From: Chitinophagaceae bacterium IBVUCB2 | GTDB lineage: Bacteria; Bacteroidota; Bacteroidia; Chitinophagales; Chitinophagaceae | Length of the DNA: 64,000 nt | Direction of reading: 5' to 3' | Assembly: GCA_002127295.1 (NCBI GenBank) | Contig: NFUV01000001.1 | Coordinates: 744,001 to 808,000 of the forward strand | In this document: piece by piece, positions 20,494-58,478 of the stretch | How positions within the stretch are numbered: the first letter of the stretch is position 1 | Layout: each line of letters opens with the position of its first letter | Notes under the pieces: generated by a model | Told to the model about the DNA's origin: nothing | The model's input: the letters and a program-made list of their open reading frames with translations, nothing else | Databases searched by the model: none | Translations under genes and position numbers: made by a program

Positions 20494-20667
20494 ATGTATA
20501 ACAATATAATAAATCGTTTTTATACTACCCATTTCCTGTTCCTGTTTTTCTTAAAAGGCTTATTGCCAAATGCTTTTGGCCAGGAGAATACTTACATAAA
20601 AACCGCCATTACAGATAATGGGAAAGGATTTATAAAGAAATCACATCAATTACTGCATCAGTATTAA
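20494..20667 (+). pseudogene. Possible remnant: signal peptide and first residues of a secreted protein
   Basis: A 57-codon plus-strand frame begins with a good Sec signal (TTHFLFLFFLKGLLPNAFGQ) followed by about 15 residues (ENTYIKTAITDNGKG). It then runs into the antisense of the DUF952 3' end and stops. The N-terminal part looks like a genuine exported Bacteroidota protein, whereas the C-terminal part cannot be. It may be the 5' stub of a gene truncated by rearrangement next to the aro operon. No family is recognised, and chance is possible. Confidence 0.35.
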
Positions 20668-20929
20668 TGGGTCCGTACACATGAGGAAATGTATCAGCGG
20701 TAGAAGGTGACCAATCAAAAACATGTTTGCTGATTAACTTATCAGTGTCGATTACAAGTTGTACCAAATCATTTTGTCCGGCAAAATATCTTTCGAGTAC
20801 GCCAGCTACCTGGTGCCCTTGAGAGCAATGAATAAACCCTTCATCTTTTAATGAAGGATGCACATAAAATCCATTTGCTTTAGCTTTTTCCCAATTATCG
20901 TTAGTGGTTACATGAAATATAATGGGCAT
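20630..20929 (-). CDS. DUF952 family protein
   Basis: This is a 99-residue protein of the DUF952 family, function unknown. The start MPIIFHVTTNDNWEKAKANG at 20929 fits the family; the open frame extends 33 codons further into aroC and is rejected. The conserved GFIHCSQ and FPHVYGPI motifs are present. The start overlaps the aroC stop by one base (TAATG), so translation is probably coupled and it is the last cistron of the aromatic operon. Its relation to aromatic synthesis is unknown. Confidence 0.85.
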   Translation of the reverse strand: MPIIFHVTTNDNWEKAKANGFYVHPSLKDEGFIHCSQGHQVAGVLERYFAGQNDLVQLVIDTDKLISKHVFDWSPSTADTFPHVYGPINTDAVIDVISL

Positions 20930-21921
20930 TATAATATTCTTTTTATTTTTTGTTCTAATAACATGAAGTCGGCTAGTACCAATGCAGTTACAGCTTCTAC
21001 AATTACCGGTGCTCTTAATGCCACACAAAGATCGTGACGGCCTTTGATGGAGAAGTCTTCTGTATTTCCCGTATCCCAGTTTAAACTATTTTGTTCTTTA
21101 GGTGTGGAGGATGTTGGTTTTACGGCTAAGCGAAATATTAGTTCATTGCCATTGCTTATTCCGCCAACTATTCCACCGGCATGATTGGTTCTTGTTTTGC
21201 CTTCCATGTTTTCAATAGCATCATTATGCTCGCTGCCGAACATTTTTGATGCTGCGAAACCTGCTCCGAATTCAACACCTTTTACTGCAGGTATGGCAAA
21301 AAGAATATGCGACAATACTGATTCGATTGAATCGAAATACGGTTCACCTAAACCAACCGGCAAACCATTTACACGACACTCAATAATTCCGCCAACTGAA
21401 TCTTTTGCATCGATGGCTCTTTGTAATCCTTTTTCTAAATCTTTTTCTCCTGCGATCTCTGTTACTTCGGCCTGAATGGTTAAATCACTCATTAACTTCT
21501 TTGCAATAGCACCTGCGGCAACAATGCCTGTTGTTAATCTTGCACTGAAATGACCACCGCCCCTGTAATCTTCATTGCCACCAAACTTTTGATGAGCTAC
21601 CCAATCCGCATGGCCGGGACGTGGAATACTTCTTTGTTTATTATAATCTTCGCTGCGGGTATTTTTATTTTCGAATAAAATAGTGATTGGAAAACCTGTT
21701 GTTTTACCATTGAAGATGCCGCTTTTAAAAATTGGAAGGTCTTCTTCCTGTCGTGGGGTTGTTCCTTTTTGTTTACCACCTTTTCTTCTTTCTAAATCAG
21801 GTAATAAATCTTCAGGAGTTAATAATAAGCCTGCGGGACAACCATCTATTGTAATACCTATACATTCACCATGTGATTCTCCAAAAATGGAAATGCGGAA
21901 TATGCGACCGAATGAATTCAA
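20929..21921 (-). CDS. aroC: Chorismate synthase
   Basis: The enzyme converts EPSP to chorismate using reduced FMN, the last shikimate step. The 330 residues include the N-terminal GRIFRISIFGESHGECIG, the segment PRPGHADW and the flavin-site region GGHFSARLTTGIVAAGAIA, and later NHAGGIVGGISNG. The length is slightly shorter than the E. coli enzyme but within the family range. It lies 3 bp after aroA. Confidence 0.97.
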   Translation of the reverse strand: MNSFGRIFRISIFGESHGECIGITIDGCPAGLLLTPEDLLPDLERRKGGKQKGTTPRQEEDLPIFKSGIFNGKTTGFPITILFENKNTRSEDYNKQRSIPRPGHADWVAHQKFGGNEDYRGGGHFSARLTTGIVAAGAIAKKLMSDLTIQAEVTEIAGEKDLEKGLQRAIDAKDSVGGIIECRVNGLPVGLGEPYFDSIESVLSHILFAIPAVKGVEFGAGFAASKMFGSEHNDAIENMEGKTRTNHAGGIVGGISNGNELIFRLAVKPTSSTPKEQNSLNWDTGNTEDFSIKGRHDLCVALRAPVIVEAVTALVLADFMLLEQKIKRIL

Positions 21922-21924
21922 GGT

Positions 21925-23220
21925 TTATAAATTGTATTGTTGATTAGGTAAAGATACTGATGCGCCAAGGCTTTTCAAATCATTATAGAAATCCGGATAA
22001 GATTTTTTTACCGCCTGCGCTTCTTCTATTACAGTTTCCTCAGTTGCTTTTAATGCAGCTACTGCACAAGCCATTGCAATACGGTGATCATGTTGTGAGT
22101 GAACATCAGCGCCTTTTACTGTTCCGCCACCATGGATTATCATTTTATCGTCTTCCAAATCTATCGTTACTCCCATTTTATCAAATTCATCCTGTAACGT
22201 AATTGCTCTATTACTTTCTTTATGGGTTAATCTGCTTACTCCTTTAATTGTTGTTTTACCATTGCAGTAAGCAGCAAGAGCAACTAGCGGAGGAAAAAGA
22301 TCAGGACAATCTGTTGCGTCAAAATAAAACCCATTCATTTCTGTAGGATGAATAACAATTCCTTTCGCATCCATTGCAATGCCGGCATTCGCAGCCATCA
22401 ATGCATCAATGATCGCTTTATCAGCTTGTGTTGATGACAGGTCTAATCCACGTACTGTTATCGGACCAGCAATAGCTCCTGCCACTAACAAGAATGCACC
22501 ACCGCTCCAATCACCTTCTACGGTGTAGTCGTGAGTTGGTAGCTTTGAGTCGGGAGCAGAGTCATTAGAGAAAATAAACTCCTCGTAGTTTTTATTTTCT
22601 GGCACTTTCATTCCAAATTGCTTCATTACATCCAATGTCAAATCTATATAAGGCCTGCTATTAAGATTATTAACCTTAATAGAAATATCGCTGGCATCTG
22701 CAGCTCCAAAAGCCATCAACAAGCCAGTGAGAAATTGAGAACTCAAAGAACCGTCTACTTCAATATTTTTTGGCTGCAATGGCCCCTGAATAGTCATTGG
22801 CAATTTGCCATCATTACTTTTGATCTTAACTCCAAGCTGTGGCAATATTTCATCAAAGAAATCCATTGGTCTTGATGCAAGACTACCAGAACCGTTGATC
22901 GTAATTTCTTTATCGCTTAAAGCTACAAGAGGAGTGAACATTCTAATACTCAATCCTGATTCACCACAATTAATTTCATTCTCAATTGGATTGACTCCTG
23001 AACTATTAATTATTAACTCTTCATTCTTAATTAATACTTCTGCTCCGAGGGCTTTTATTATTCCCAATGCAGCTTTATCATCATTACTATGACCAGGCTT
23101 CAAAATTCTCGTTTCTCCATTAATCAACAACGCAGCAGCACAAGCTCTTTGCATTGAACTTTTAGAAGCGGGCGCCTGTATTGTTCCTTTTAATTTGGAC
23201 GGATGTATTGTTACTTTCAC
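21925..23220 (-). CDS. aroA: 3-phosphoshikimate 1-carboxyvinyltransferase (EPSP synthase)
   Basis: The enzyme transfers enolpyruvyl from PEP to shikimate 3-phosphate. The 431 residues show PASKSSMQRACAAALLI near the N-terminus, the NCGESGLSIRMFTPLVALS substrate loop (family NSGTTxR variant), DGSLSSQFLTGLLMAFG, and the C-terminal DHRIAMACAVAAL. The start is GTG, 2 bp after the aroB stop; no upstream ATG fits. The sequence is divergent from E. coli AroA, and the GESGLSIR loop would be of interest for inhibitor response. Confidence 0.93.
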   Translation of the reverse strand: MKVTIHPSKLKGTIQAPASKSSMQRACAAALLINGETRILKPGHSNDDKAALGIIKALGAEVLIKNEELIINSSGVNPIENEINCGESGLSIRMFTPLVALSDKEITINGSGSLASRPMDFFDEILPQLGVKIKSNDGKLPMTIQGPLQPKNIEVDGSLSSQFLTGLLMAFGAADASDISIKVNNLNSRPYIDLTLDVMKQFGMKVPENKNYEEFIFSNDSAPDSKLPTHDYTVEGDWSGGAFLLVAGAIAGPITVRGLDLSSTQADKAIIDALMAANAGIAMDAKGIVIHPTEMNGFYFDATDCPDLFPPLVALAAYCNGKTTIKGVSRLTHKESNRAITLQDEFDKMGVTIDLEDDKMIIHGGGTVKGADVHSQHDHRIAMACAVAALKATEETVIEEAQAVKKSYPDFYNDLKSLGASVSLPNQQYNL

Positions 23221-23222
23221 TA

Positions 23223-24242
23223 TTAAAATTCTTGAATGATTTTCTCTAATTGTTTTAACGAAATACTTTTTACTATTCCCTTTCCTATTCTTTCAAGCAA
23301 CACATAATTCATTTCTTTTCTTTCCCGTTTCTTATCCATCTTCAATATTTCAAAAACTTTTTGTTTGTCGAATGACGCATAAGTTGGAAGATTATACTTT
23401 TCTAAAACTGCTACAACTTTTTCTGTTTGCTTAAAGCCCGCCAATTTTTCCGAAATGTGACAAGCATAGGTCATGCCGATGGAAATTGCTTGCCCGTGCA
23501 ATAGTTCATACTGTGTTTCTAATGCATGCCCTAATGTATGGCCGAAATTTAACAATCGTCTCTCCTCTTTTTCAAACTCATCTTTCTGCACTACTTTAAT
23601 TTTTATCAAAGCGTTTCGTTGTATCAACTCGCAGATCGACTTTTGTCTTCCTCGATAGGTTTTCAATGAATTAGTTTCCAATTGTGAAAACATAGCCGCA
23701 TCCTTTATGCAAGCATGTTTTATTACTTCTGCAAAACCATTTTCCCATTCCTGCTGTGGCAATGAATTAAGAAACACCATATCCTGTAAAATGAAAGAAG
23801 GCTGACGAATGATGCCGACCATATTTTTATATTCGCCAACATCTATTCCATTTTTTCCGCCGATCGATGCATCAACTAATCCTAATATTGATGTAGGTAA
23901 AAAGCCAAACCGAATTCCCCGCATATATACCGATGCTACATAACCTGTGATATCAGTTATTACTCCACCACCAATACCAACCAATGTTGTTTTTCGGTCA
24001 GCTTCCATCTCTATAAGCTTTTCAATGACTGCATCTACTGTAGCCTGTACTTTAAATTCTTCGCCGGGTTTTAATACAATTGTGTTCCAGCCTTTGAAAC
24101 GTTTTTCATGAGCCCTGAAAACATTTTCGTCAGTTATCAATACTGTGGTCTTAGGATCAGTTATCTTTTTGAGATGACTAATACCCGAAGCAAAGTGTAT
24201 CTCAGTTGAAGCTGATGAAAATTTAAAAATCTTTGTTGTCAT
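23223..24242 (-). CDS. aroB: 3-dehydroquinate synthase
   Basis: The enzyme converts DAHP to 3-dehydroquinate with NAD and a divalent metal. The 339 residues contain the NAD-binding GIGGGVITDITGYVASVYMR, the active-site GGKNGIDVGEYKNMVG, and the metal-ligand region LNFGHTLGHALETQ. The size is normal. It lies in the operon between the DAHP synthase fusion and aroA. Confidence 0.96.
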   Translation of the reverse strand: MTTKIFKFSSASTEIHFASGISHLKKITDPKTTVLITDENVFRAHEKRFKGWNTIVLKPGEEFKVQATVDAVIEKLIEMEADRKTTLVGIGGGVITDITGYVASVYMRGIRFGFLPTSILGLVDASIGGKNGIDVGEYKNMVGIIRQPSFILQDMVFLNSLPQQEWENGFAEVIKHACIKDAAMFSQLETNSLKTYRGRQKSICELIQRNALIKIKVVQKDEFEKEERRLLNFGHTLGHALETQYELLHGQAISIGMTYACHISEKLAGFKQTEKVVAVLEKYNLPTYASFDKQKVFEILKMDKKRERKEMNYVLLERIGKGIVKSISLKQLEKIIQEF

Positions 24243-24302: not shown

Positions 24303-25391
24303 TTAAGAATCCAACACTTTCTTCTGATGATTGATACTTTCCATATGCACCGCATCAAAATATTTGGTGATAAATTCTTTGCTCAAGCCGATCTTATCGC
24401 CTTTGGCAGTTGCTCTTTCAATGATCTCGTTCCAACGATTGGTTTGTAAGATGGTAATATTATTTTCCTTCTTGTACTTACCGATCTGTTCTGCTATTTT
24501 CATCCGCTGACTTAAAATCTGCATCAACTCATCATCCAACTGGTTTATTTGCTGACGCAATTTTTCCAATGCTGCATGATATTCTTCTGAGCTAATATCT
24601 TCTTTTCTCCAAATAATTGTATCCAGCATTTCAGCCAACCGTTCAGGTGTTACCTGTTGCTTCGCATCGCTCCACGCATTGTCGGGATCTATGTGGCTTT
24701 CGATCATCAATCCATCATAATCAAGATCGATTGCTCTTTGCATTGTGTCCAGTAATATATCACGGCGGCCACAGATATGTGAAGGATCATTGATGAAAAC
24801 CAGGTCAGGATATTTCAATTTCATTTCAATGGCCAAATGCCACATGGGTGCATTCCGAAATTCAGTATTCCCATACGAACTAAAACCCCGATGTATCAAT
24901 CCAATTTGTTTTACACCGGCCCTTGCAATTCTTTCCACTGCTCCCGCCCACAATTCCAGGTCTGGGTTGATCGGATTTTTTATCATCACAGGAACATTTG
25001 TTCCCCGCAATGCATCTGCGACTTCCTGCACACTAAATGGGTTCACCGTTGTTCTTGCGCCAATCCATAGTACATCCACATCGAATGTCAATGCATCTTG
25101 CACTTGTTTGCCAGTAGCAACTTCAACTGTTGTTGGCAATCCCGTTAACTTTTTTGCCTGTTGTAGCCAGGGTAATCCTTTTGCACCTACTCCTTCAAAC
25201 ATACCGGGTTTAGTTCGTGGTTTCCAGATACCAGCCCGAATCATATCAACTTTTCCAGTGGCTGCTAATCGCTGCGCTGTTGTTACTAATTGTTCTTCTG
25301 TTTCTGCACTGCATGGGCCACTAATGATGAGCGGACGTTTGCCCCAGGCCTGTTGCACTGTTTCGTTTGTTGCTTGCTCTGTTGTTTGCAT
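24303..25391 (-). CDS. Bifunctional DAHP synthase / chorismate mutase (type II AroQ fold at C-terminus)
   Basis: The N-terminal part (about 1-265) is a type I-beta DAHP synthase: LIISGPCSAETEEQLV, then AGIWKPRTKPGMFEGVG, IGARTTVNPFSVQEVADAL, IHRGFSSYG and FINDPSHICGRRD with the metal ligands. The C-terminal 90 residues are an AroQ chorismate mutase (LRQQINQLDDELMQILSQRM, then KIAEQIGKYKK). This order of fusion is known from Bacteroidota such as Porphyromonas and Prevotella, where the mutase domain lets prephenate inhibit the synthase. The first committed step and the branch-point step are thus on one polypeptide inside the attenuated operon. Confidence 0.95.
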   Translation of the reverse strand: MQTTEQATNETVQQAWGKRPLIISGPCSAETEEQLVTTAQRLAATGKVDMIRAGIWKPRTKPGMFEGVGAKGLPWLQQAKKLTGLPTTVEVATGKQVQDALTFDVDVLWIGARTTVNPFSVQEVADALRGTNVPVMIKNPINPDLELWAGAVERIARAGVKQIGLIHRGFSSYGNTEFRNAPMWHLAIEMKLKYPDLVFINDPSHICGRRDILLDTMQRAIDLDYDGLMIESHIDPDNAWSDAKQQVTPERLAEMLDTIIWRKEDISSEEYHAALEKLRQQINQLDDELMQILSQRMKIAEQIGKYKKENNITILQTNRWNEIIERATAKGDKIGLSKEFITKYFDAVHMESINHQKKVLDS

Positions 25392-25420: not shown

Positions 25421-26272
25421 TTATTTTATAATTCTCCTGATCTTATTCGCATTTTCAATTAGCTTCATTAAGTATTCGTTATCCTCTTTTTCAATACTCT
25501 CTTTAAATCTTGAGAGCTGCGCAATATGCTCTTTTAAAACATCCAGCACATTCTCTTTATTCTGCATAAATATCGGAACCCACATAGCAGGATTACTTTT
25601 TGCCAATCTCACCGTACTTTCAAAACCTGCAGAGGCTAATTCGAAAATGGCATTCTCTTCTTTTTCTTTTTCTAATACCGTATTGGCCAATGCAAATGAA
25701 GTGATATGAGAAATATGACTTACATAGGCTGCATGCAGGTCATGTGCTTTGGCTTCCATTTCTAATAAATGCATTCCTATTTTCTTGTACATATTTTTCA
25801 CCCATTCCAATGCATCAATATCGCTTTCGTCTGCATTGCAAATAATTACTGCCTTGTTTTCATAGGCACCACGCACTGCCGATTGCGGACCGCTGTACTC
25901 GGTTCCCCACATAGGATGTGTGGCTACATATCTTCCCCTTTTAGGATGATTTTTTATTGTATCTATTAATTGACTTTTTGTAGAACCCAGGTCAACAACG
26001 ATCTGCTGGTCTATTTTATCCATGATAGATGGCAACAGGCTTACTAGTTTATCAACCGGTATGGCAAGAACAATTACATCAGATTGCTCTATTGCTTCAT
26101 GCAAGGGCATTGTTTCATCTACCAATTCCAATTCTACAGCTTGCTTAGCATGTTCTTCATTGGCATCTACACCAATCAGTCTTGATGATAATTTCTTTTC
26201 ATGCAGTTGTATAGCCAATGATCCGCCTATCAGCCCCACACCAACAATAGCAACTCTTTTTCTTTGTGACAT
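25421..26272 (-). CDS. tyrA: Prephenate dehydrogenase
   Basis: The enzyme makes 4-hydroxyphenylpyruvate for tyrosine, using NAD(P). The 283 residues begin with the Rossmann motif VAIVGVGLIGGSLAIQL, continue with DVIVLAIPVDKL and VVDLGSTKSQLI, and hold the active-site segment THPMWGTEYSGPQSA with its histidine. An all-helical C-terminal half includes SHISHITSFALAN. No chorismate mutase or ACT domain is attached. It starts 4 bp after the aminotransferase. Confidence 0.94.
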   Translation of the reverse strand: MSQRKRVAIVGVGLIGGSLAIQLHEKKLSSRLIGVDANEEHAKQAVELELVDETMPLHEAIEQSDVIVLAIPVDKLVSLLPSIMDKIDQQIVVDLGSTKSQLIDTIKNHPKRGRYVATHPMWGTEYSGPQSAVRGAYENKAVIICNADESDIDALEWVKNMYKKIGMHLLEMEAKAHDLHAAYVSHISHITSFALANTVLEKEKEENAIFELASAGFESTVRLAKSNPAMWVPIFMQNKENVLDVLKEHIAQLSRFKESIEKEDNEYLMKLIENANKIRRIIK

Positions 26273-26276
26273 AATT

Positions 26277-27431
26277 TTAATTTTTTATTCTCAGAATCGC
26301 TTCCTCAAACTTCTCGACCGGAGCACATAAACTAACTCTTATATATTTGTTACCGGCATTTCCAAATATTCCACCCGGGGTTATAAACACATTTGATTTA
26401 TACAATACCTCATCGCTTAACACATATCCATCTTTATATGATCCGGGTATTCTTGCCCAAACAAACATGCCCACCTGTTCTTTTGAAAATTCGCAATTAA
26501 GTAATTGCAATAGTTCAAATACCTTTTCCCTTCTTGCCCGGTAAATAGCATTTACCTCATCATGCCATTCTTTTCCCAGACCTAATGCTGTTGCTGCAGC
26601 CAATTGTGCCGGTAAAAACATACCACTGTCCATATTACTTTTAAATCGCAATACTTCTTCTATTCTTTCTTTAGCACCACATAACATTCCAACTCTCCAA
26701 CCAGCCATATTATGACTTTTGCTCAATGAGTTGAGTTCAATCACACAATCCGTGGCTCCTTCAACTGACAATAAACTCGCCGGCTCTTCATTTAAAATAA
26801 AAGAATATGGATTATCATGGATAATGAGAATATTATGCTTCTTTCCAAATGCTACCAATTTTTCAAATAATTCTTTCGTTGATAACTGACCTGTTGGCAT
26901 CTGCGGATAATTTACAAACATCAGCTTTACTTTCTTCAGTTTACTTTTCGATAACTTATCAAAGTCAGGATGGTAATTATTTTTTTCGGTTAATTTATAT
27001 TCTACACATTTTCCGCCCGCCAATTTTACTGCACTTCTGTAAGTGGGATAGCCGGGATTAGGAACCAGCACTTTATCCCCTTTATCAAGATAAGTCATGC
27101 AGATATGCATAATACCTTCTTTGCTTCCTATCAAAGGCAATACTTCTGTGTCTGGATCCAATTCAACCCTGTACCATTTTCTATACCACTCACAAACCGC
27201 TTTTCGCAACACCACTGAACCTTTGTAAGATTGATAGGCATGTGTGGTTGGTTTTGCACTTTCTTCCTGCAATGTTTTTATTACATCCGGGTGGGGTGGC
27301 ATATCAGGACTCCCAATACCTAAATTGATAATATTCTTTCCTGCTTTATTTAATTCTTCTATTTCTCTCAATTTTTGAGAGAAATAATATTCGCCAATAC
27401 CTTCTAAACGCTTGCTTATTTTCATTTCCAA
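26277..27431 (-). CDS. PLP-dependent class I/II aminotransferase, probably aromatic or aspartate
   Basis: The 384 residues are of fold type I. The PLP lysine lies in ELNSLSKSHNMAGWRVGML, and upstream are NLGIGSPDMPPHPDV and the segment VPNPGYPTYRSAVKLAGG. Position between pheA and tyrA suggests it transaminates phenylpyruvate, 4-hydroxyphenylpyruvate or prephenate. The family also includes aspartate and LL-diaminopimelate aminotransferases, so specificity is inferred only from context. Its first 10 bases overlap the end of pheA, which suggests coupling. Confidence 0.9.
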   Translation of the reverse strand: MEMKISKRLEGIGEYYFSQKLREIEELNKAGKNIINLGIGSPDMPPHPDVIKTLQEESAKPTTHAYQSYKGSVVLRKAVCEWYRKWYRVELDPDTEVLPLIGSKEGIMHICMTYLDKGDKVLVPNPGYPTYRSAVKLAGGKCVEYKLTEKNNYHPDFDKLSKSKLKKVKLMFVNYPQMPTGQLSTKELFEKLVAFGKKHNILIIHDNPYSFILNEEPASLLSVEGATDCVIELNSLSKSHNMAGWRVGMLCGAKERIEEVLRFKSNMDSGMFLPAQLAAATALGLGKEWHDEVNAIYRARREKVFELLQLLNCEFSKEQVGMFVWARIPGSYKDGYVLSDEVLYKSNVFITPGGIFGNAGNKYIRVSLCAPVEKFEEAILRIKN

Positions 27432-28249
27432 ATTCCTTTTTTATAAACTCCGTAAATTTTTGTCTCTGCTGTTAATTTTTTCATTTGTGCAATCACCCCA
27501 TTAAACTGACTTAAGGTATCAAATTCCATATCTGCATGAAAGCTGTATTTAAAATCGGTGCCCGGAATCGGAAAGCTTTGCAACTTGCTTAAGTTAATTC
27601 CTCCCGCTGCGATCGCTGTTAAAACTTTTGCCAGACTTCCTTTTGAATGATCGGTATGAAAATTAACCGATGCTTTATTTGCACCTTCCACCGGCTTTGC
27701 CACATCTTCTCTTTGCACAACAAGAAATCTTGTATAGTTATTTTTCATTGTCTGAATACTCGGTGCAATCATATCAAGGTTGTATAATTCTGCGGCCAGC
27801 TTACTTGCAATAGCCGCTATATGCTTACTTTTATGCTGGTGAATATGTTTTGCACTTATTGCGGTATCATCTGTTTCAACCAACTTCCATTTATGCTTAT
27901 CTAAAAAATCATAGCACTGCTGCAATGCCATGGTATGAGAATGCACTTCCCGGATGTCTTCCAATTTTACCCCGGGATTAACTAACAGATTTTGTCGTAT
28001 CTGTAAATAAATTTCGCCAACGATCTTCAAATTGCTTTTCTGCAGCAAATTGTAGTTCGGCAAAATGCTTCCGGCGATAGAATTTTCTATGGCCATAATA
28101 CCGCCATCGCTTTCCTTTTTATTACCGGCGATCTTTACTACTTCTTTAAAAGTGTTACAGGTAACTACTTCAACTCCCTTACCAAAGAAAAGCTGTGCCG
28201 CCACCTGGTGAAAGCTGCCTTCGTAACCTTGTATAGAAATCTTAGCCAT
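27422..28249 (-). CDS. pheA: Prephenate dehydratase
   Basis: The enzyme decarboxylates and dehydrates prephenate to phenylpyruvate. The 275 residues start MAKISIQGYEGSFHQVAAQL and contain GGIMAIENSIAGSILPNYNL and a TRFLV motif (NYTRFLVVQR). A C-terminal ACT domain (SVNFHTDHSKGSLAKVLTAI and the LSKLQSFPIPG effector motif) should confer phenylalanine inhibition. No mutase domain is fused, since the mutase sits on the DAHP synthase. It is the first structural gene after the attenuator. Confidence 0.95.
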   Translation of the reverse strand: MAKISIQGYEGSFHQVAAQLFFGKGVEVVTCNTFKEVVKIAGNKKESDGGIMAIENSIAGSILPNYNLLQKSNLKIVGEIYLQIRQNLLVNPGVKLEDIREVHSHTMALQQCYDFLDKHKWKLVETDDTAISAKHIHQHKSKHIAAIASKLAAELYNLDMIAPSIQTMKNNYTRFLVVQREDVAKPVEGANKASVNFHTDHSKGSLAKVLTAIAAGGINLSKLQSFPIPGTDFKYSFHADMEFDTLSQFNGVIAQMKKLTAETKIYGVYKKGIWK

Positions 28250-28264
28250 ATAGTATTAAAACAA

Positions 28265-28291
28265 GAATCCCGGCCAAGCTGGCCGGGATTC
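28265..28291 (-). terminator. Attenuator terminator upstream of pheA
   Basis: A perfect 11-bp stem GAATCCCGGCC/GGCCGGGATTC with a 5-nt loop is followed on the minus strand by TTGTTTTAATAC. It ends 16 bp before the pheA ATG. Its 5' arm can pair instead with a segment inside the upstream leader ORF (28338-28345), making it the terminator of an attenuator. Confidence 0.85.
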
Positions 28292-28400
28292 TTTATGTTG
28301 TTTTTTAGTTATTCTAGTTTGTTTTCAACAAAAGCATTCCCGGCCTCTTATTAAAGAAGTAATAAAAATAGAAACCAAAATATGTACTTGTTGTTGTCAT
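28292..28400 (-). promoter_or_regulatory. Phe/Tyr transcription attenuator: leader region with competing antiterminator segment
   Basis: The leader RNA carries GGCCGGGA (28345 down to 28338, in leader codons 19-21). This is identical to the 3' arm of the terminator and fully complementary over 8 bp to its 5' arm (28288-28281), so the two hairpins exclude each other. The eight bases lie 8 nt after the last codon of the Phe/Tyr run. A ribosome stalled in the early or middle part of the run would leave them free to form the antiterminator, whereas rapid translation would disrupt them and let the terminator form. No clear protector hairpin (1:2) was found, so basal control is uncertain. Confidence 0.8.
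28314..28400 (-). CDS. Leader peptide of the aromatic amino acid operon, rich in Phe and Tyr
   Basis: This is a 28-codon ORF. Residues 1-6 are MTTTST, residues 7-16 are YFGFYFYYFF (five Phe, four Tyr, one Gly), and the rest is NKRPGMLLLKTN before a TAG stop. Nine aromatic codons in ten, directly before genes for Phe and Tyr synthesis, is the hallmark of a ribosome-sensing leader peptide. Its ATG is 6 bp from the -7 element, so the mRNA is probably almost leaderless. It is not expected to have any other function. Confidence 0.85.
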   Translation of the reverse strand: MTTTSTYFGFYFYYFFNKRPGMLLLKTN

Positions 28401-28406
28401 CCTGAA

Positions 28407-28437
28407 CAAATATAGTTGTCCTGATTAGTAAATCAAA
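28407..28437 (-). promoter_or_regulatory. Promoter of the aromatic amino acid operon
   Basis: On the minus strand TTTG (28434-28437) is followed after 19 bp by TATATTTG (28407-28414), a full match to the Bacteroidota consensus. It starts 12 bp after the helicase stop codon. Transcription should begin about 3-6 bp downstream, only a few bases before the leader ATG. Confidence 0.8.
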
Positions 28438-28449
28438 CTTTTAATCACT

Positions 28450-30135
28450 TTATTTTCCTCTGCCGCCGCCAGACTCTGCATCATTCATACGAATCTTACG
28501 TCCCCGATAATTCTTACCATCTATCGCTTTTATCATTTTCTTACCTGCTGTCGGTTCAATTTCGATCCAGCTTGTCATTTCCTTCATGTCGATTCTGCCC
28601 AGCACTTCCTTTTTCAAATCACTCATATCTAAAATAAACTGAAGAAAACTTGCTTTGTAAAAACCATCCTTAGTTCCAAGATTTACAAACAAGCGTTGGT
28701 AATTACCACCGCCGCTAAAGCTTCTTCCTTTTGTATCTCTGTCTCTTTCTCTTGGGGCACCTCTTTCGCCTCTATCTGCTCCTCTTCTATCATCTCTTCT
28801 GTCGTTGCCTCTCATATTAAGATCGGCCGCATTTTCATAATATTTCAGGAAACGATCAAATTCTAATGCAGCTACTCTTTGTAATATTTCTTCCTTATCT
28901 ACAGATGCAAATTTTTCTCTTAACGTTGGTAAATATGCTTCGTATTCGCCATGGCTAATATCAGCACTCAGCATTTTATCAATAAAGTGAAAAAATTGTT
29001 TGCGGCAAACATCTTTACCACTTGGTATATCCATTTTATGAAACTGCGTCTTCACTATTCTTTCTACCTGGCGTAGCCGATATACTTCTTTAGGTGTAAC
29101 AATTGAAACAGAAACTCCGCTGCTCCCTGCCCGGCCAGTACGTCCACTTCTATGTGTGTACACTTCCACATCATCAGGTAATTCGTAATTAATTACATGT
29201 GTAATGCCTTTCACATCGATACCCCTTGCAGCCACATCAGTTGCAACAAGCAGCTTCACACTCTTATCTCTGAACAATCCCATCACTTTATCTCTCTGTT
29301 GCTGGGTAAGGTCACCATGTATCGCATCTATATCATAGCCTTCTCTTGTCAACTTCTCCGCAATATCTTGTGTATCCGCTTTAGTTCGTGCAAACACAAT
29401 TCCGTAGATGCCGGGATTAAAGTCGATAATTCTTTTTAATACTTCGTACCGGTTATGGTGCTGGGTAGCATAATACTGATGATCAATATTTGCAGCTCCC
29501 TCATTTGTTTTTCCAATAGTGATTTCAAATGGCTTATCCATGTACTTTTTGCTCACCTGCCTGATCTCTGCTGGCATTGTAGCACTGAATAACCAGGTGC
29601 TCTGACGGTTGGGAGTATTTTTTAAGATAAACTCGATATCATCTTTAAAGCCCATGTTCAGCATTTCATCCGCTTCATCCAATACAACGTAATGTATCTT
29701 TTCGAGGTTGATGGCTTTCCTTTCGATCAAATCAATTAAACGGCCGGGAGTAGCAACTACAATGTGAGTGCCTCGTTTAAGATCCCGGATTTGCATAGTG
29801 ATTGAGGTACCACCATATACAGCCGTAACGCTTATATTTATTTTTTTGCTCTTGAATTTTTCAAGATCACTTGCTATTTGTAAACAAAGTTCTCTAGTGG
29901 GGCAAACGATTAAAGCTTGCGGAAAACGGTCTTCTTTATTAATTAGTTGTAATAAAGGCAAGCCGAATGCAGCCGTTTTACCGGTGCCGGTTTGTGCAAG
30001 ACCGATAAAGTCTTTTGTCCCTTGTAATAAAACAGGGATCGCTTTTTCCTGGATGGGTGTGGGCTGAGTGAACCCTAAAGTGGTGATGGACTGTATTAAT
30101 CCTTCTTCAACTCCTAATTCTTGAAATGTAGTCAC
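28450..30135 (-). CDS. DEAD-box RNA helicase with DbpA-type RNA-binding domain
   Basis: This is an ATP-dependent RNA helicase of 561 residues, probably acting in ribosome assembly or RNA turnover. Motifs: Q motif GFTQPTPIQ, AQTGTGKT (47-54), DEAD (153-156), SAT (184-186), HRSGRTGR (328-335). A low-complexity R/D/G linker (about 442-475, with DRRDDRRG) leads to a DbpA RNA-binding domain (about 479-553), which in DbpA recognises 23S rRNA hairpin 92. The closest type is DeaD/DbpA. A TACCTTTG element at 30170-30177 is a likely promoter. Confidence 0.94.
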   Translation of the reverse strand: MTTFQELGVEEGLIQSITTLGFTQPTPIQEKAIPVLLQGTKDFIGLAQTGTGKTAAFGLPLLQLINKEDRFPQALIVCPTRELCLQIASDLEKFKSKKINISVTAVYGGTSITMQIRDLKRGTHIVVATPGRLIDLIERKAINLEKIHYVVLDEADEMLNMGFKDDIEFILKNTPNRQSTWLFSATMPAEIRQVSKKYMDKPFEITIGKTNEGAANIDHQYYATQHHNRYEVLKRIIDFNPGIYGIVFARTKADTQDIAEKLTREGYDIDAIHGDLTQQQRDKVMGLFRDKSVKLLVATDVAARGIDVKGITHVINYELPDDVEVYTHRSGRTGRAGSSGVSVSIVTPKEVYRLRQVERIVKTQFHKMDIPSGKDVCRKQFFHFIDKMLSADISHGEYEAYLPTLREKFASVDKEEILQRVAALEFDRFLKYYENAADLNMRGNDRRDDRRGADRGERGAPRERDRDTKGRSFSGGGNYQRLFVNLGTKDGFYKASFLQFILDMSDLKKEVLGRIDMKEMTSWIEIEPTAGKKMIKAIDGKNYRGRKIRMNDAESGGGRGK

Positions 30136-58275: not shown

Positions 58276-58320
58276 CAGCAGTTCTTAGCCTTTTAGGTGT
58301 AAAAGGCTTTAGTTCACAGT

Positions 58321-58412
58321 GTTCCCGGGGTGTTCCGTCTCTTGCCTAAAGCAAGACTGGGACTGAGATTATACCCGTTAAACCTGGTCAGGGTAATGCC
58401 TGCGTAGGGAAG
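58321..58412 (+). promoter_or_regulatory. Thiamine pyrophosphate (TPP) riboswitch
   Basis: The sequence shows the conserved THI-element parts in order: closing stem TTCCC/GGGAA (58322-58326 with 58407-58411), GGGGTG, the variable P3a hairpin CTTGCCTAAAGCAAG, GGACTGAGATTATACCCG (58369-58376 is CTGAGATT), AACCTGGTCAGGGTAATGCC, and GCGTAGGGA. These are the pyrimidine- and diphosphate-binding elements of the TPP aptamer. It lies 67 bp before the start of a TonB-dependent receptor, so thiamine probably represses that receptor. The expression platform was not resolved. Confidence 0.93.
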
Positions 58413-58478
58413 GATATCATCAATTGACCTTTCTCCACAGCATTTCCCTCTTATTTTTTAACCTGTAAACATTAAAAA

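Follow-up and report, generated by a model that had tools for sequence, protein, structure and literature searches.

The pheA-led aromatic operon of Chitinophagaceae bacterium IBVUCB2 appears to be controlled by a ribosome-mediated attenuator responsive to how well tRNA-Phe and tRNA-Tyr are each charged, a reading to which we assign, on the strength of the sequence, a probability of about 0.9. The putative switch lies on the minus strand of the window, i.e., the whole 64,000-nt stretch of DNA that was analysed. Its leader ORF, promoter match, terminator and competing pairing are directly visible, as are conservation and covariation in relatives. Its parts are the following.

28434..28437, minus strand: -33 element TTTG, read directly, 19 nt before the -7 box
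28407..28414, minus strand: -7 box TATATTTG, compared with the Bacteroidota sigma-A consensus TAnnTTTG
28401..28402, minus strand: predicted 5′UTR of 2 nt, from a predicted start at 28402 (-7 box position rule)
28314..28400, minus strand: leader peptide ORF MTTTSTYFGFYFYYFFNKRPGMLLLKTN, 28 codons plus stop, read directly and kept in relatives
28353..28382, minus strand: regulatory codons 7-16, Y F G F Y F Y Y F F, nine of ten being Phe or Tyr, read directly
28326..28345, minus strand: antiterminator strand within the leader ORF, GGCCGGGA followed by the MLLL codons, from pairing search and covariation
28281..28300, minus strand: antiterminator partner, consisting of the spacer and the terminator 5′ arm, from pairing search
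28263..28293, minus strand: intrinsic terminator hairpin with a 14-bp stem and a 3-nt loop, from terminator scan and folding
28254..28262, minus strand: U-rich tract of the terminator, read directly and by scan

The promoter (TTTG, 19 nt, TATATTTG) and the 28-codon leader with nine Phe/Tyr codons among ten, both described in an earlier note on this DNA, are present on the minus strand, and GGCCGGGA lies inside leader codons 19-21 as stated there (28345-28338). A DEAD-box helicase gene on the same strand ends at 28450, 12 nt before the promoter match. In Flavobacterium psychrophilum, the -7 box TAnnTTTG occupies positions -12 to -5 (PMC9723704), and it is this rule, applied here, that places the predicted start at 28402 and leaves a 5′UTR of 2 nt. 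The 158-nt region folds with a z-score of -5.6 relative to 200 shuffles. A terminator does precede pheA, but its stem measures 14 bp rather than the 11 bp first reported. Similarly, the competition of GGCCGGGA for the terminator 5′ arm is real, but the pairing extends beyond GGCCGGGA to 18 bp (28345-28326 with 28300-28281), because the MLLL codons pair with CAACAUAAAG ahead of the arm, which probably accounts for that tail of the leader. The CAACA/UGUUG extension of the window is found as such in only 37 of 116 family leaders. Calculated energies of the two alternative structures in the window are -24.9 kcal/mol for the antiterminator and -24.5 kcal/mol for the terminator.

Behind the element, seven ORFs follow on one strand, joined by an overlap or separated by gaps of 2 to 60 nt.

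27422..28249, minus strand: pheA, prephenate dehydratase (Pfam PDT, 196 bits, over cut-off; NCBIfam prephenate dehydratase models below theirs)
26277..27431, minus strand: class I/II aminotransferase (Pfam Aminotran_1_2; NCBIfam matches shown all below cut-off)
25421..26272, minus strand: tyrA, prephenate dehydrogenase (NCBIfam PRK08507 over cut-off)
24303..25391, minus strand: DAHP synthase fused to chorismate mutase (PF00793 and PF01817)
23223..24242, minus strand: aroB, 3-dehydroquinate synthase (TIGR01357 over cut-off)
21925..23220, minus strand: aroA, EPSP synthase (TIGR01356 over cut-off)
20929..21921, minus strand: aroC, chorismate synthase (TIGR00033 over cut-off)

What had been counted as an eight-gene operon thus comprises eight activities in seven ORFs, since a single ORF encodes both DAHP synthase and chorismate mutase. 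The aminotransferase is a member as claimed, being of class I/II by Pfam, but its substrate is not established; a homologue lies downstream of pheA in 79 of 80 named genome loci, the remaining locus being cut short. From gene order, the distal genes are likely to be under the leader promoter and the whole operon to be co-transcribed. A DUF952 ORF (window 20630-21028, minus strand) overlaps the end of aroC and may also belong to the operon. In a search of the genome, the one other PF00793 match was KdsA and no match to a class II DAHP synthase was obtained, so the sole DAHP synthase found lies behind the leader element.

How might such an arrangement work? Transcription is predicted to begin about 2 nt ahead of the leader AUG. 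Upon shortage of Phe or Tyr, a ribosome would stall in codons 7-14 and leave codons 19-25 free, which could then base-pair with spacer and terminator 5′ arm, so that the terminator would not form; RNA polymerase would read through pheA, the aminotransferase gene, tyrA, the DAHP synthase/chorismate mutase gene, aroB, aroA and aroC. A fast ribosome would cover codons 19-25 while the terminator forms, and transcription would stop. The transcription start, the translation of the leader, the timing of the ribosome and the response to Phe and Tyr are what we infer in this scheme.

The leader is widely kept among relatives. A family-wide search located pheA in 132 of 195 Chitinophagaceae genomes (133 matches, window included); 130 upstream regions, again including the window, were read first, and the three most diverged were added later. 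At least six Phe, Tyr or Trp residues within 11 codons are encoded upstream of pheA in 128 of the 130 loci, and in 129 of 133 with the stragglers. The stricter level of at least seven is reached by 126 of the 130 regions, by none of 130 mononucleotide shuffles and by one of 130 reverse strands. A clear leader is absent from L090, L114 and two of the three stragglers. One genome (G149) harbours two pheA copies, L090 and L104, with a Phe/Tyr leader on only one of them. A 2.0-Mb genome of the same genus (G155) gave no pheA match, which suggests loss of the pathway. Eighty named genome loci, which overlap the family set and several of which lie on contigs already in it, all carry the leader (e.g., Terrimonas, Niastella, Lacibacter, Flavihumibacter, Filimonas and Puia). 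Beyond the family we read 57 loci, hand-picked for family spread among the matches listed rather than at random. Forty of these are pheA loci of other families, one more remote and 39 sharing the order or class, and 37 have a leader; the three misses (L164, L166, L167) all come from a single family of the class, in which two of the five loci read possess the leader and three lack it, indicating loss or gain within that family. The remaining 17 loci represent more remote parts of the phylum; only two have a leader, and none was seen in six genomes with a diverged PheA (~30% identity).

Codon-level changes within the run bear indirectly on whether the leader is translated. We counted substitutions in 86 pairs of similar leaders, drawn from 172 distinct ORFs of 208 loci. 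In the Phe/Tyr run, codon positions 1, 2 and 3 differ 46, 119 and 151 times, and the codon changes comprise 96 synonymous ones, 70 Phe-Tyr exchanges and 66 others, i.e., 166 of 232 are synonymous or exchange Phe and Tyr. Both amino acids are kept in the leaders: an 11-codon stretch of a family leader contains on average 5.5 Phe and 3.4 Tyr codons, with at least two Tyr in 125 of 128.

The terminator and its competitor are conserved alongside. The terminator scan was positive in 117 of the 128 family leaders, the match in L051 being false; on folding, L051 and the 11 leaders missed by the scan also display a hairpin followed by a U-rich stretch, L103 having the weakest. The leader stretch that pairs with the terminator 5′ arm falls mostly at about codons 18-25. 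Pairing of leaders with their own arm amounts to 18.8, versus 12.3 for codon-shuffled leaders and 16.5 with the arms of other genomes, and the shuffle test is modest when taken genome by genome (p <= 0.01 in 52 and p <= 0.05 in 87 of 117). Mean energies over 116 family leaders are -19.5 for the antiterminator and -18.2 for the terminator, compared with -15.7 for swapped partners. At 73 loci, the base before CCGGG in the leader and the base after CCCGG in the arm could be compared: they form G-C in 51 cases, A-T in 14 and G-T in two, and are mismatched in six. Among 27 arms with another core (alternatives include CCTCCGG, CCCGCC and CCTCAG), 18 have in their own leader a better partner than in at least 92% of other-class leaders, and nine show no specific match to their own leader. 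Own-leader pairing is poor or no better than that of others in L036, L063, L099, L105 and L106; the arms of L107, L113, L115 and L120 are of the CCCGG type and are fitted by many leaders. Across the family sequences, leader and terminator covary. The check proposed in the earlier note, i.e., to look in relatives for a conserved aromatic-rich ORF together with covarying hairpins, has thus been passed, and its interpretation of the region as an attenuator is supported by the conserved leader, the terminator and the covarying competing pairing.

To relate ribosome position to RNA structure, we modelled the RNA as it would be just before the terminator 3′ arm; truncated RNAs were folded at equilibrium, and a crude 30-nt mask stood in for the ribosome. 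These state models cover 111 and 116 of the 128 family leaders, the larger set leaving out L051 and the 11 leaders without a scan terminator. In the window, the modelled probability that the arm is paired upstream is 0.88 without a ribosome and 0.87 with the A site at codons 7-14; it is 0.20-0.32 with the A site at codons 16-23 and 0.21-0.25 once the ribosome has left the run by one to three codons. Across the family (n=116), the mean is 0.81 when no ribosome is placed, 0.88 for a stall in mid-run and 0.30-0.33 when the ribosome has moved one to three codons beyond the run. A helix-specific measure (n=111) gives a similar picture, with 0.90, 0.98 and, for the last Phe/Tyr codon, 0.45. The model thus has the antiterminator as its default structure, which a moving ribosome removes. 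The scheme is weakest with the ribosome at the stop codon, where the antiterminator re-forms in the model (0.88 in the window; family mean 0.65, with at least 0.5 in 82 of 116). Termination in fed cells, we argue, would then need either timing or a ribosome situated between both strands, which we would expect to prevent this return. It should also need translation of the leader, since the model has no hairpin that hides the antiterminator strand when the ribosome is absent.

This last feature bears on a more conventional alternative, namely the classical design of E. coli pheL, with four segments, one hairpin of which serves as a protector and holds the operon off when the leader is untranslated. 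Indeed, the full-length fold pairs the 5′ codons of the leader with GGCCGGGAAUG and UUUUGUUG, and a hidden antiterminator strand, i.e., a probability of upstream pairing below 0.3 without a ribosome, is modelled in 4 of 116 family leaders. In the window, however, this 1:2 pairing shows only after the terminator has taken its own arm. The RNA modelled before the terminator 3′ arm forms no protector hairpin in the window, nor in most relatives, and we rejected the hairpin of the full-length fold as the main design because it is gone at that stage. The E. coli positive controls behave differently: without a ribosome pheL scores 0.16, trpL 0.07 and hisL 0.23, as opposed to 0.88 in the window and the mean of 0.81 in the family, and upon a mid-run stall they reach 0.88, 0.75 and 0.78, respectively, as classical attenuators should (thrL has no terminator by scan, hence no model score). 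The missing protector hairpin, listed as an open point by the earlier note, is hence a property that held up in the model. Leaders of other families agree: of 37, 28 could be folded (nine have no scan terminator), and in 26 of these the ribosome-free RNA has an antiterminator probability of 0.5 or more. We thus consider the classical design unlikely. The two readings make opposite predictions. In a classical attenuator, changing the leader AUG to a non-start codon should lower read-through. As the modelled RNA lacks a protector hairpin, loss of leader translation should here increase expression rather than lower it, opposite to the textbook case.

Other explanations fare worse. The hairpin might be a mere terminator of the upstream helicase gene, which is on the same strand and ends close to the promoter match, and the short ORF might be incidental. 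We rejected this possibility because the leader is present in 80 of 80 named loci and a helicase homologue in the upstream flank of only 30; the nearest upstream ORF is, moreover, on the other strand in 24 of 78 named loci (by a crude ORF count, two further loci having none), and covariation of leader and terminator speaks against it as well, so that it seems very improbable. A slightly greater, but still small, chance is given to the idea that the leader peptide or a short terminated RNA acts in trans, besides or instead of attenuation, in the manner of peTrpL and rnTrpL. A near-leaderless short transcript would resemble rnTrpL as described for Sinorhizobium meliloti (PMC7298713), whereas the C-terminal residues of the leader vary with the terminator arm, which is expected of RNA pairing and not of a conserved peptide function. 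Virtually no weight remains for a T-box or metabolite riboswitch before pheA, for which we found no supporting point: no Rfam family reaches its gathering score within 28230-28430, on which ground a known RNA family was rejected, and the best leader-type matches (Thr_leader, 26.7 bits; Phe_leader, RF01859, 26.2 bits) stay far below the gathering score of 55.

The leader is predicted to start almost at the 5′ end of the transcript. A TAnnTTTG box is found within 70 nt in 109 of 128 family leaders, and the predicted 5′UTR is 0-4 nt long in 92 of these 109 when the earliest in-frame ATG downstream of the predicted start is taken as its end, a procedure that favours short values; with the previously chosen start, the box lies 4-8 nt ahead of the ATG in 84 cases. 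As a prediction, then, the nearly leaderless start of the leader ORF that the earlier note had pointed out can be upheld. In other families, a box is present in 16 of 37 leaders and the predicted 5′UTR has a median of 16 nt, being at most 4 nt in three of the 16, apparently L134, L135 and L137, which are of the same order. Among 298 other genes with free upstream DNA, 16 have a -7 box within 90 nt, and three of these 16 lie at 4 nt or less; this control is small, with 29 genes from the window and 269 from fetched loci, and a stricter version left no usable genes. Genome-wide, 5.5% of mRNAs are reported as leaderless in F. psychrophilum (PMC9723704), and about 3.7% of 5′UTRs are shorter than 10 nt in Bacteroides thetaiotaomicron (PMC7366714). 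Judged against these figures, the short predicted start looks like a trait of Chitinophagaceae and their order. The phylum is also described as lacking Shine-Dalgarno sequences (PMC9723704). It is tempting to connect the short start with the missing protector hairpin, but we rejected such a link: leaders of other families are likewise without a protector (26 of 28), yet have the longer median 5′UTR, so the two features are uncoupled. The reverse case exists as well: in Chitinophagaceae, his and trp leaders are often near-leaderless, yet protector-like (<0.3) in 12 of 27 and 11 of 26 cases, respectively.

Those leaders belong to a wider set of attenuator-like leader peptides with a shared architecture. 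Upstream of hisG (L193-L222), a His-rich leader, e.g., MKINIHIHHHHFISNG, occurs in 27 of 30 loci, and upstream of trpE (L223-L252) at least three Trp within one scanned stretch occur in 26 of 30, of which 24 are of the WWW type; the leaders of L224 and L228 look spurious and are both within the 26 modelled. An Ile/Val-rich leader precedes ilvD (L253-L282) in 11 of 30 loci. With a relaxed box, the predicted 5′UTR is at most 4 nt in 11 of 25 his, 8 of 10 trp and 0 of 11 ilv leaders. When modelled, his and trp leaders alike show terminators and a switch that depends on stalling, and about four in ten are protector-like. In the genome to which the window belongs, hisG is preceded by a His leader, MIKHTHNHHHFLLPTSRL (L363:512-568; read by hand), with its own terminator and a -7 box ending 8 nt ahead of the ATG, and there is a Trp leader (L232) as well; the best ilvD match of this genome lies inside a gene cluster, with no leader directly before it. 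Elsewhere in the window, a TPP riboswitch exceeds the Rfam gathering score (58316-58427, plus strand).

Joining these strands into one picture is more tentative, and we would put its chances somewhat short of even. We envision a default-on form of attenuation, whereby an antiterminator matched in energy to the terminator is the resting structure and shut-off is achieved only if a ribosome loaded at the 5′ end covers codons 19-25 in time, such that leader translation would be required for termination, the reverse of E. coli pheL. A single Phe/Tyr sensor would thereby set the sole DAHP synthase found, and with it the entry to all aromatic synthesis. The spread of the leaders suggests that the layout is old in Bacteroidia and that in Chitinophagaceae and their order the leader start came to lie at the transcript end.

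More generally, the attenuator reading suggests that the charging of tRNA-Phe and tRNA-Tyr sets, through transcription, the sole DAHP synthase found, on which synthesis of Trp depends too. In place of a vague hint of attenuation in Bacteroidota, there is now a concrete and testable candidate switch across Chitinophagaceae and several other families, and annotators gain a search route to attenuator-like leaders (his, trp and some ilv) in a poorly covered phylum.

In the open-access literature, we found no account of a Phe/Tyr codon run, an ORF-embedded antiterminator or a near-leaderless start of this kind in Bacteroidota; work by Lopatovskaya et al. from 2010 is said to deal with attenuation in bacteria and may bear on this novelty. 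The earlier note knew of no description in this phylum, and in one respect this needs qualification: a 2021 transcriptome paper on F. psychrophilum reports strong clues that amino acid operons of this species are attenuated through leader peptides, and describes 5′ elements ahead of pheA and hisG whose conservation extends to other Flavobacteriaceae (PMC9723704). Gene, phylum and suggested mode of control are shared with the element studied here, which, compared by description, is likely to be that same pheA element; in the text consulted, the latter is presented without its sequence, its codons, a pairing or a mechanism. For B. thetaiotaomicron, short ORFs that recall the leader peptides of attenuators have been mentioned (PMC7366714), and the passages on leader peptides in Naville and Gautheret (2010; PMC2965389) name them in Proteobacteria, Actinobacteria and Firmicutes only.

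Partial parallels exist in other phyla. The trpL ORF of S. meliloti (PMC7298713) and several leaders of Streptomyces lividans (PMC8079986) are described as starting right at the transcript 5′ end or beside it, but they concern other amino acids, and the start proposed here is promoter-predicted, usually with 0-4 nt upstream of the ORF. In the uORFC-13-1 motif ahead of Acholeplasma aroF (PMC8632094), too, a short ORF containing Phe codons precedes a terminator and a DAHP synthase gene; as described, the motif has at least one Phe codon, with no mixed Phe/Tyr run in the description, and occurs in Acholeplasma and environmental sequences only. Another close relative in design is E. coli pheL (RF01859), which shares a short ORF rich in codons for the product, an intrinsic terminator before pheA and an antiterminator that competes for the terminator arm. 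Unlike pheL, the element described here mixes Phe and Tyr codons, carries its antiterminator strand inside the ORF past the codon run, has no protector in the model (0.88 versus 0.16 without a ribosome) and a predicted 5′UTR of 2 nt, and would also control tyrA, DAHP synthase, aroB, aroA and aroC. Hints of leader-peptide attenuation and of a pheA 5′ element were already on record for F. psychrophilum; what the sequences point to is a new form of this known type of switch.
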